IMG/VR virus record: IMGVR_UViG_3300044616_001090
Location: 1-47,058 of that record
Origin: a virus
Length of the DNA stretch: 47,058 nt
Strand: one strand, 5' to 3'
Shown: in pieces, positions 37,532 to 42,119 of the stretch
Layout: each line of letters starts with the position of its first letter
Numbering within the stretch: the first letter of the stretch is position 1
Translations under genes and position numbers: made by a program
Notes under the pieces: model-generated
The model's input: only the letters and a program-made list of their open reading frames with translations
Databases searched by the model: none
What the model was told of the DNA's origin: nothing

Positions 37532-37539
37532 TATCTTTG
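37532..37539 (+). promoter_or_regulatory. TATCTTTG promoter box upstream of the HNH/tRNA cluster
   Basis: Exact TAnnTTTG. The region at the -33 position is TTTA, one base from TTTG. Same octamer as at 41134 and 19644. Confidence 0.55.
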
Positions 37540-37550
37540 TAAAATAAGTG

Positions 37551-37559
37551 GTTCTTTGA
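37551..37559 (+). promoter_or_regulatory. boxA-like antitermination element
   Basis: GTTCTTTGA followed by CATATGG, 11 bases after the promoter box. It matches the leader element I know from Bacteroidota rRNA operons (GTTCTTTGACAT), where Nus factors bind. It precedes the tRNA and structured-RNA cluster. Confidence 0.6.
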
Positions 37560-37599
37560 CATATGGATTTTGAACCGATTACCTGATATTTATTATCAT

Positions 37600-38124
37600 A
37601 TGGTAATCAATTCAAATAAATGTAAAGAATGTTCAGTAGAAATACCGAACGGACGAAAATTTTGTGGTAGTAGTTGTGCCGCAAAATTTAATAACAAAGC
37701 ATACCCTAAGAGAACTCACGGTAGAACAAAACCAAAGTGTCTGAATTGTGGTAATGAAATAAATGGTAGGTACGATAGAAAATACTGTAGTAATAAATGT
37801 CAAAATAATAAAACACAAAAAGACATTTTAAATAAAGTACAAAATGAAGAATTTGATAAACTTGGTAACAAAGCATCAATAGATAGAACTAGTAAAAAAT
37901 ACCTAATTAAAACATACGGAGAAAAATGTATGAAATGTGGTTGGGATGAGATAAATAAATGGACAAAAAAGGTACCAATTGAATTAAATCACATTGACGG
38001 TAATCCTGAAAATCATTCATTAAACAATCTTGAATTAATATGTCCTAATTGTCATTCTCTTACAGAATTTAATAAAAGTAGAGGTAAGGGTAGAAAATGG
38101 AGAAAAACTATATTTTTAAAATAA
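37600..38124 (+). CDS. HNH endonuclease with zinc ribbons
   Basis: A 174-residue protein starting at ATG 37600; a TTG at 37570 could add ten residues. Two N-terminal zinc knuckles: CKEC/CGSSC (8-26) and CLNC/CSNKC (47-67). The HNH core is CMKCGW (110-115), ELNHIDGNPENHSLNNLELICPNCHSL (128-154), with His131, Asn143/144 and His152. It is a free-standing nuclease, perhaps a homing endonuclease that targets the RNA gene cluster. The tRNA-Thr begins directly after its stop codon. Confidence 0.87.
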   Translation: MVINSNKCKECSVEIPNGRKFCGSSCAAKFNNKAYPKRTHGRTKPKCLNCGNEINGRYDRKYCSNKCQNNKTQKDILNKVQNEEFDKLGNKASIDRTSKKYLIKTYGEKCMKCGWDEINKWTKKVPIELNHIDGNPENHSLNNLELICPNCHSLTEFNKSRGKGRKWRKTIFLK

Positions 38125-38209
38125 GCCAACTTCGCATAGATGGTCGAGTGCACCTGATTTGTAATCAGGAACAGAAATGACATCGGGGGTTCGAATCCCT
38201 CAGTTGGCT
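38125..38209 (+). tRNA. tRNA-Thr(UGU), with a 15-nt variable region
   Basis: Acceptor GCCAACT/AGTTGGC (7 bp), D stem GCAT/GTGC, anticodon stem CCTGA/TCAGG with loop TTTGTAA (anticodon TGT), T stem GGGGG/CCCTC with loop TTCGAAT. The variable region AACAGAAATGACATC is 15 nt, long for a Thr tRNA. CCA is not encoded. It begins the base after the HNH stop, so it must be cut from a longer transcript. Confidence 0.85.
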
Positions 38210-38211
38210 CA

Positions 38212-38568
38212 ACAGGTGACGACGGTGGTGTGACCCCACTGTCTATAAATCCCAAAAGATCCGTTTGAATCTAGATGTAGAACGGTGAGGGTAGAGTTAC
38301 TATAAGTTGGAGTAATTAACCATTAAACGAAAAGTAACCACAGACTATGTCTGTTATGATGTACATAGATGGTACGAAAAACCTGTAACTTTTTGAAACT
38401 AACTCAACGAGGACTTTGTCAACCAGAGCAATGACTCGGATGGTGCAACTTAAGTTGGGTTGGAATCAAACATTAATGTGATAATCACTCCGATTTTTAA
38501 TCGGTAAGCACCCGGCAGTAACACCGGGATGGCAATGTGGTTATTAAGAGGTAAGGAAAAGACTAATA
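38212..38568 (+). ncRNA. Structured non-coding RNA between tRNA-Thr and tRNA-Met
   Basis: No convincing reading frame covers these 357 bases. There are clear hairpins: an 8-bp stem GACGGTGG/CCACTGTC at 38221-38243, CAGAC/GTCTG at about 38342, CCGA/TCGG with a 7-base loop at about 38491, and CCCGG/CCGGG at about 38512-38530. The 14-base motif at 38309 is repeated in the next spacer. Not a tRNA, RNase P or 6S RNA that I recognise. Confidence 0.6.
38309..38322 (+). repeat. 14-base motif GGAGTAATTAACCA, copy 1
   Basis: Exact match to the sequence at 38970-38983, in the other inter-tRNA spacer. Could be a shared RNA fold or protein site. Confidence 0.7.
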
Positions 38569-38641
38569 GGACTTGTAGCTTAATGGTTGAAGCAGCACAC
38601 TCATAATGTGAAGATTATAGGTTCGAGCCCTATCTGGTCCA
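38569..38641 (+). tRNA. tRNA-Met(CAU)
   Basis: Acceptor GGACTTG/CTGGTCC has one T-T mismatch; anticodon loop CTCATAA gives CAT; T arm ATAGG-TTCGAGC-CCTAT is perfect. The first anticodon-stem pair is G-A. It could be initiator, elongator or, if lysidine-modified, Ile; the sequence cannot decide. CCA is not encoded. Confidence 0.85.
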
Positions 38642-38689
38642 CAAAAAGGTTTGATAATTTAATATATTTTGTATATATTATAAAATAAT

Positions 38690-38775
38690 GGAGAGATGGT
38701 AGAGTTGGTCTATTGCACCTGACTTGAAATCAGGAGACTGTCAAAGGTCCGTGGGTTCGAATCCTACTCTCTCCG
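38690..38775 (+). tRNA. tRNA-Ser(UGA)
   Basis: Acceptor GGAGAGA/TCTCTCC, anticodon stem CCTGA/TCAGG with loop CTTGAAA (anticodon TGA), long variable arm of about 16 nt as expected for Ser, and T arm with TTCGAAT. CCA not encoded. Confidence 0.92.
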
Positions 38776-39038
38776 CTGTAGAGTTTGCCCGTGGTAACGG
38801 TCTAATAGGGAAACCTTTTAGACTTCTCGCGTCAAAACCCAAAACACTGACCTACTGGTGCTTGGGCTAAATGTAGAAAAAAAACGGGATATTTTTTAAT
38901 CACAAATAAAAATGTGAGTTATAATAAAGTAGCCAATTATAAGCCAACATAAAGCTGTTGGATACAGACGGAGTAATTAACCAGAGTATAGTGCAACAAT
39001 TGTGATATTCTAACAAATACCCATTTGAGTGATTATTT
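38776..39038 (+). ncRNA. Structured non-coding RNA between tRNA-Ser and tRNA-Glu
   Basis: These 263 bases have no open frame. Hairpins: CCGT/ACGG at about 38790; GTCTAA-AGG-GAAA-CCT-TTAGAC with a GAAA tetraloop at about 38803-38832; CCCAA/TTGGG at about 38846-38875; TCACA/TGTGA at about 38900-38920; CCAAC/GTTGG at about 38944-38961. It carries the second GGAGTAATTAACCA copy. Confidence 0.6.
38970..38983 (+). repeat. 14-base motif GGAGTAATTAACCA, copy 2
   Basis: Exact match to 38309-38322, also located some way upstream of a tRNA. Flanks are not similar. Confidence 0.7.
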
Positions 39039-39110
39039 GTTCTTGTCGACTAAGGGTTAGGTCACCTCCCTTTCACGGAGGTAATACGGGTTCGAATCCC
39101 GTCGGGAATA
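39039..39110 (+). tRNA. tRNA-Glu(UUC)
   Basis: Acceptor GTTCTTG/CGGGAAT (several G-T pairs), anticodon stem CCTCC/GGAGG with loop CTTTCAC (anticodon TTC), T arm ACGGG-TTCGAAT-CCCGT. CCA not encoded. The next gene's ATG is three bases further. Confidence 0.9.
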
Positions 39111-39112
39111 CA

Positions 39113-40893: not shown

Positions 40894-41106
40894 ATGAAGT
40901 GTTTAAAAAATACTAAAACTGGAAACATCATTAGAGTAGATGAAAAACAAGCTTATCAAATGGTGGGTAACACATGGAAATACACAACTAAAACAGAGTG
41001 GAAAGGTGTAGCATCTCCATCCCCAAAAGAGAATGTTGAAGTTGGTCACGACCAAGGAGGTTCTTATGAAATTAAGAAAGAAAAAAAATCTAAGAAAGTT
41101 TCTTAA
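40894..41106 (+). CDS. Hypothetical small basic protein
   Basis: A 70-residue protein: MKCLKNTKTGNIIRVDEKQAYQMVGNTWKYTTKTEWKGV, then a polar Lys-rich tail. The N-terminal pattern (K-L-x-N-x-x-T-G-x-I-x-R-V...WKY-x-x-K-S/TEWK) is one I associate with small phage proteins. Function unknown. Confidence 0.6.
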   Translation: MKCLKNTKTGNIIRVDEKQAYQMVGNTWKYTTKTEWKGVASPSPKENVEVGHDQGGSYEIKKEKKSKKVS

Positions 41107-41133
41107 TAATTTCTTTTTTTGAAAAATGTTTCT

Positions 41134-41141
41134 TATCTTTG
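41134..41141 (+). promoter_or_regulatory. TATCTTTG promoter box of the giant RNA
   Basis: Exact TAnnTTTG, 28 bases after the stop of the small gene. There is a TTG at 41119 but the spacer is only 12 bases, so the upstream part is unclear. Confidence 0.55.
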
Positions 41142-41159
41142 TTAAAGAAACAAGAAATA

Positions 41160-41168
41160 GTTCTTTGA
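41160..41168 (+). promoter_or_regulatory. boxA-like element at the start of the giant RNA
   Basis: GTTCTTTGA, identical to 37551-37559 and 18 bases after the -7 box. Fits an antitermination signal for a long untranslated transcript. Confidence 0.6.
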
Positions 41169-41179
41169 ATAAAAATATT

Positions 41180-42047
41180 GGCCGTCTATAGTCAATAAAA
41201 TAAACCACGAAAGTGGGATAAAGTGAGGAGTCCTTGGTTGGGACAAATTGCGGATTCATTAATGGATCTCAAGTAGACAAGTGGAATATCATTTAACCTG
41301 AAGTAGTGAGGGTAACTCCGTAGCGAAAGGGTTGGATGACCAAGCAATCCGAGTTGTTTGGTTGAGATGGGAACATCAATAAGAATAATCCATAGAATTC
41401 ATGTAAGAAATATAGTTATCCAATTATATTATTGCGTAATTCAATATAATGGTGGTCTTAAAACCGTAGCGTCGTAAGATGGAAGGTATGACAAAAAACA
41501 GGTGGTGCTGTTAGTGTCCTTGACTAAATCCTACCAAGGGTTTAATCTTGAAGGAAACCAAAAATATGATGGCAGGGATGTCATATCGGGTAGTTTAGTA
41601 TCGAGTCGCCCAAAAGGTGATTTGGCTGGTCACGAACCGCTACCTGGATAATTCGGAAACTAAATTTTTATTATCGGTATAAAAATCAATAATTAAAAGA
41701 AAAAGTGTTCGTGCGTAATGTCCGATAGGTCACTACATAGTTGTGAGGGGTTCACAGCCATAAAGGGTCTCAAGCCCAATATGATTTTTAAGAAAGTTCT
41801 CTAAACCCGCAAGGTTGAGTCAGGTCGGCAGATTTGATGAGTGATGAGTACTAATAGAGTAGGGTGTTACGAAAGGATTGGTTAATCTAATTGACCGTGA
41901 CTGAAACTTACTAATCAAAAGTTAGTGGAAATAAGGGGAATCAAATAATCCTTTTAAAGAGTTTCGTTAAGACATGTATTCTCAATGTTTTATTTTCTTT
42001 GTTTAGAAAAACAAAGTGGTGGTGAATGTATGTAAAACCATACGGCC
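41180..42047 (+). ncRNA. Giant structured non-coding RNA (about 870-900 nt)
   Basis: No plausible reading frame covers this region. The ends can pair: GGCCGT at 41180-41185 with ACGGCC at 42042-42047, extended by three more pairs past a mismatch. Inside are many GC-rich, evenly spaced segments and several GNRA-type hairpins: CCAC-GAAA-GTGG at 41205-41216, GAGG-GTAA-CTCC at about 41308-41321, CCC-GCAA-GG at about 41806. It has its own promoter, boxA-like site and terminator. Size, phage context and nearby tRNAs fit the GOLLD/ROOL class of large ornate RNAs; I cannot confirm a family without a covariance search. Confidence 0.72.
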
Positions 42048-42058
42048 TATACAAAATT

Positions 42059-42086
42059 AAGTCAGAAGAAATTCTGACTTTTTTTA
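42059..42086 (+). terminator. Terminator of the giant RNA
   Basis: Perfect 9-bp stem AAGTCAGAA/TTCTGACTT with GAAA loop and a seven-T run. Confidence 0.9.
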
Positions 42087-42119
42087 TGTATATTCAAAAA
42101 AAATTAGTATATTAGTGTT

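Follow-up and report, generated by a model that had tools for sequence, protein, structure and literature searches.

The window, that is, the whole 47,058-nucleotide stretch of viral DNA that was analysed, carries a single GOLLD RNA of about 810–870 nt, a known kind of RNA with a two-domain layout like that of env-38 GOLLD. A conserved promoter–boxA leader lies ahead of it, and an intrinsic terminator follows (Table 1). On neither strand does the RNA fully enclose an open reading frame of at least 60 aa, in line with the initial annotation. The nearest one (40903–41259, minus strand) shares just about the first 80 bases with the RNA. The region was also said to be richer in GC than its surroundings, and its 37.3% compares with 30.2% and 32.6% in the flanks, a level equalled by 3.4% of 870-nt windows. 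The RNA strand folds more strongly than shuffled sequences (z −3.1). At its downstream end, the terminator claimed earlier is a stem-loop at 42059–42080, followed by the T run; it is retained in the close relative L007.

Table 1. Features of the GOLLD locus and of the second promoter–boxA leader, in window coordinates.
Feature	Position	Strand	Basis or remark
Bacteroidota-type −7 promoter element TATCTTTG (TAnnTTTG)	41134..41141	+	conserved position relative to boxA
boxA GTTCTTTGA	41160..41168	+	exact in most non-redundant GOLLD leaders
GOLLD 5' domain	41178..41585	+	outside the Rfam model; repeated double-sided compensation; fixed spacing
Pseudoknot, 5' arm GUCUA	41184..41188	+	pairs with 41274–41278
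Pseudoknot, 3' arm UAGAC	41274..41278	+	pairs with 41184–41188
GOLLD 3' domain	41586..41988	+	full RF02032 match; compensated pairs
Helix across linker, 5' arm CACGAAC	41631..41637	+	pairs with 41707–41713
A/U-rich linker	41657..41704 (approximate limits)	+	length and sequence freely variable in the alignment; same site as the env-38 linker
Helix across linker, 3' arm GUUCGUG	41707..41713	+	pairs with 41631–41637
Intrinsic terminator	42059..42087	+	terminator scan; 9-bp stem, GAAA loop, T run
Second leader: TATCTTTG and boxA GTTCTTTGA	37532..37539 and 37551..37559	+	heads the tRNA cluster 38125–39111

Four tRNAs and a tmRNA lie within 4 kb of the GOLLD, in agreement with the context described initially, and the virus record that carries it also holds terminase and protease genes, which marks the RNA as phage-encoded. 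The phage is probably a large, tailed one with a host among the Bacteroidota. Its terminase has nearest matches below 30% identity, among them Flavobacterium phages and also a Microcystis phage. The promoter, the boxA and the terminase agree with the proposal of a divergent Bacteroidota member, and the host is inferred from them.

The surroundings of the tRNA genes hold several further elements. The boxA leader of the tRNA cluster is immediately followed by a 184-aa reading frame (37570–38124) with zinc-finger-like and HNH-like motifs; its Pfam match is weak (DUF2116), and it looks like a homing endonuclease inside the tRNA operon. An ORF-poor stretch between tRNA genes (38211–38568) is 74–95% identical in a dozen related phages, has no Rfam match besides tRNAs and is possibly an unknown RNA. 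A second conserved inter-tRNA stretch (38777–39038), likewise not assigned to any RNA, has GGAGTAATTAACCA in common with it. Before a small ORF, the non-coding segment 40727–40885 is kept over its first ~60 bases in about a dozen relatives, with a GGACTCC/GGAAGTCC hairpin within these bases, and gave no match in Rfam.

The RNA was classified by a cmscan search of the whole window against Rfam 15. Positions 41586–41988 match the Rfam GOLLD model (RF02032) over its entire length (1–416 of 416), scoring 300.8 bits where the gathering score is 150 (E 3.2e-85). The covariance-model search proposed at the outset thus assigns the class; since the Rfam model represents the 3' half of GOLLD only, this match covers one of the two domains. 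A blastn search of phage records located the 5' half in two phage genomes from metagenomes (634 and 642 kb), each with an adjoining GOLLD match. A 28-nt pattern from the 5' half matched at least 120 viral stretches and a pattern from the 3' half matched 119. The two occur together in 164 locus strands at a spacing of 635–711 nt, and the 5' motif is present at every 3'-pattern locus having more than 900 nt upstream. A 5' domain without its 3' partner was considered for 19 loci where the short 3' pattern seemed absent and was rejected, as 18 of them show GOLLD on the expected strand and above the Rfam threshold. The exception, L132, has no GOLLD match and carries two copies of the 5' motif, one near the contig end. 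Two other loci, L004 and L006, were set aside as chance matches of a first DNA pattern. Outside the viral set, the 3' pattern found zero matches in genome contigs, and no GOLLD was found among 148 Bacteroidota genomes in a search run without a positive control.

Upstream of the RNA, the leader is of the rRNA type and is a strongly conserved, newly noticed part of GOLLD loci. Each leader was searched over the 160 nt ahead of the 5'-domain anchor, with random windows of equal length for comparison. Exact GTTCTTTGA is present in 191 of 214 GOLLD leaders, or 105 of 119 once near-duplicates are removed, and in 246 of 20000 random windows (1.2%); the boxA-like site of the initial annotation is hence a conserved element. 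Hairpins of at least 5 bp occur in the 36 nt before boxA in 133 of the 191 leaders, against about 54 in mononucleotide shuffles. The sequence TAnnTTTG is the −7 element of Bacteroidota promoters. Of 105 non-redundant leaders, 85 contain it in the 70 nt ahead of boxA, compared with 6% for random windows; its usual places are −36 to −34 and −26, the latter being its place in the GOLLD leader of the window. As for the promoter itself, TATCTTTG stands exactly at the start noted earlier and in a conserved position, whereas a generic sigma-70 scan returned no more promoters than in shuffles; it is therefore the Bacteroidota-type motif, at its conserved place, that carries the promoter call. No report linking GOLLD to boxA was found in the part of the literature that was searched, which lends weak support to its novelty. 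Six loci (L139, L141, L160, L163, L175 and L207) additionally carry a boxA-led, ORF-poor element about 410–420 nt before GOLLD, with a conserved GAGGAAAGTGACTACGGGAC motif; the element of L139 has no match in Rfam.

The same motif is found well beyond GOLLD. In the 16S leaders of Bacteroidota, G[TA]TC[TA]TTGA occurs in 74 of 112 cases versus 1.5% of random windows, and exact GTTCTTTGA in 43 of 112 versus 0.8%, the exact sites lying 75–184 nt before the 16S start. Among 108 GTTCTTTGA sites of these phages that are unconnected with GOLLD, 39 have a tRNA or tmRNA gene within 700 nt downstream, versus 3.7% of random positions, and several of the remaining sites lie ahead of tmRNA-like sequence unreported by ARAGORN. 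The window itself contains a second leader of this kind ahead of its tRNA cluster (Table 1). No boxA precedes the tmRNA gene of the window, and none is recognisable at GOLLD in one phage each of Acinetobacter, Streptococcus and Mycobacterium, so that boxA does not define GOLLD as a class. In phage DSS3_MAL1 (L356 590–600), a GGAACC/GGTTCC hairpin is followed by GCTCTTTGACA, some 130 nt ahead of a tRNA–GOLLD–tmRNA cluster, a hint of distinct boxA forms in other host lineages. Given this variant and the GOLLDs lacking boxA, the pattern is lineage-dependent. At two loci, L126 and L179, GOLLD sits inside very large phage tRNA arrays with more than 15 tRNA genes, and L126 has several boxA sites, each 17–30 nt before a tRNA.

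These distributions bear on the possibility that GTTCTTTGA is not a boxA, being instead a part of the promoter or initially transcribed region, or an element for the processing or folding of GOLLD. Such an explanation could draw on the position of GTTCTTTGA, which is set relative to a promoter-like element, and on the fact that Nus binding to it is deduced from the motif. It is nevertheless unlikely. Between boxA and GOLLD lie anywhere from about 25 to 150 nt, which argues that the motif is not part of the GOLLD fold, and GTTCTTTGA also stands ahead of tRNA and tmRNA genes and is the motif of Bacteroidota 16S leaders, a sequence of boxA type.

Further support for a structured RNA comes from an alignment of 74 non-redundant sequences, for which the consensus was computed with RNAalifold. 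Counting a pair as compensated when it shows at least two double-sided compensations, and without correction for phylogeny, 87 of 120 predicted pairs qualify in the 5' domain and 72 of 102 in the 3' domain, so that the homologue alignment proposed at the outset yields covarying pairs in both halves. Compensatory changes recur in many sequence types. The alignment thereby supplies a covariation-supported model of the GOLLD 5' domain, which is absent from the Rfam model. The GUCUA/UAGAC pseudoknot has 99.2% standard pairs and 55 compensatory cells, where shuffles average 16.6, and the CACGAAC/GUUCGUG helix, which spans the linker, has 100% standard pairs and 77 compensatory cells, where shuffles average 19. 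The pairing of the RNA's ends first suggested, GGCCGT with ACGGCC, was rejected as a closing helix: it is unconserved, with exact complementarity in 3 of 74 relatives when 1.5 would be expected with tails dealt at random, and the overlapping GUCUA forms the covarying pseudoknot instead. Overall, homology, covariation and the conserved leader bear out the initial description of a giant, structured phage RNA, equipped with a promoter-like element, boxA and terminator; the absence of reading frames, the GC content, the terminator, the boxA and the tRNA/tmRNA context stand, and the end pairing falls.

Whether such an RNA assembles is informed by env-38 GOLLD, which forms a 14-mer RNA cage by cryo-EM (PMC12286853). 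Its layout consists of domains 1–420 and 421–833 and a linker at 497–538 that is disordered inside the cage (PMC12286853). By analogy, the RNA of the window may likewise assemble into a hollow cage. A scan for switching self-complementary loop dinucleotides, which served as a kissing-loop test, found zero, a result that speaks neither for nor against a cage. The RNA could alternatively be a degenerate or monomeric relative of GOLLD that has lost the ability to form cages. This reading appears improbable, because phages of diverse kinds keep the helices paired through extensive compensatory change and because the published layout is matched in both cage domains and in the linker. That the locus encodes a new class of giant RNA, or ROOL, OLE, HEARO or a self-splicing intron, is a reading with next to no probability: it could appeal to the 5' half, which lies outside the Rfam model and was therefore unplaceable for a reader without tools, but the GOLLD match is full-length at twice the gathering score, whereas ROOL, OLE, HEARO and group I/II introns have zero matches at the gathering threshold anywhere in the window. 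Of the two classes suspected at first, GOLLD is accordingly confirmed and ROOL is not, and the RF02032 match together with the covarying 5' domain at fixed spacing identifies a single GOLLD RNA, contradicting the idea of a new class.

The region 41134–42087 is thus read, with a probability of roughly three in four, as a GOLLD transcription unit in which a boxA–NusB–S10 leader precedes a cage-forming RNA that belongs to a stable-RNA programme. Transcription would most likely start just downstream of TATCTTTG, and the nascent leader would expose boxA and recruit the host's NusB–S10 antitermination complex of the rRNA type. RNA polymerase loaded in this way could transcribe the roughly 870 nt of untranslated and strongly structured RNA without being terminated by Rho, and would stop at the hairpin terminator. 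The transcript is predicted to fold into its 5' and 3' domains and, judging from homology with env-38, may assemble into a hollow cage with the A/U-rich linker inside. GOLLD would be one product of a stable-RNA programme, together with the tRNAs and tmRNA of the phage, and this programme presumably supports translation at the time of infection.

For Bacteroidota phages more generally, it seems fairly likely that GOLLD, tRNA arrays and tmRNA belong to one stable-RNA regulon with a promoter–boxA leader in the style of rRNA operons, in which the host antitermination complex is used to produce, and perhaps co-transcriptionally fold, a giant RNA. GOLLD cages consist of RNA only and are larger than the ribosome. 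Published hints about GOLLD include co-location with tRNAs, an increase during lysis and a ribosome pull-down (PMC12286853); as a role for the cage, an interaction with ribosomes or tRNAs is favoured, if only tentatively. An rRNA-type boxA before GOLLD, tRNAs and tmRNA would, if true, explain how long untranslated phage RNAs are made without Rho termination, and it would group GOLLD with translation-related stable RNAs. The boxA leader would also offer a direct experimental handle on GOLLD in cultivable Bacteroidota systems.

Compared with known systems, the RNA resembles ROOL in being a large phage-associated RNA cage near tRNA islands and differs from it in sequence and fold, with no ROOL match in the window. 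The likeness to env-38 GOLLD is closer: the two domains measure about 408 and 403 nt, a variable linker occupies the corresponding site, and the RNA is encoded next to tRNAs in a phage. It differs in its source lineage, here phages probably of Bacteroidota, and in its conserved promoter–boxA leader, while a closed multimer is known only for env-38. The text of the cryo-EM paper contains no mention of boxA, antitermination or Bacteroidota (PMC12286853). The third comparison is with rRNA operons, for which the function of boxA and NusB/S10 is established (PMC4807359). Counting against the antitermination part of the reading, it has been argued that what Nus factors chiefly do at the rRNA of E. 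coli is something other than antitermination (PMC4807359). The phage leaders differ in that the downstream RNA is a phage cage RNA, a tRNA array or a tmRNA, and their Nus dependence is a prediction. They share with rRNA operon leaders the same succession of a promoter element, often a hairpin, GTTCTTTGA and then a long untranslated RNA.
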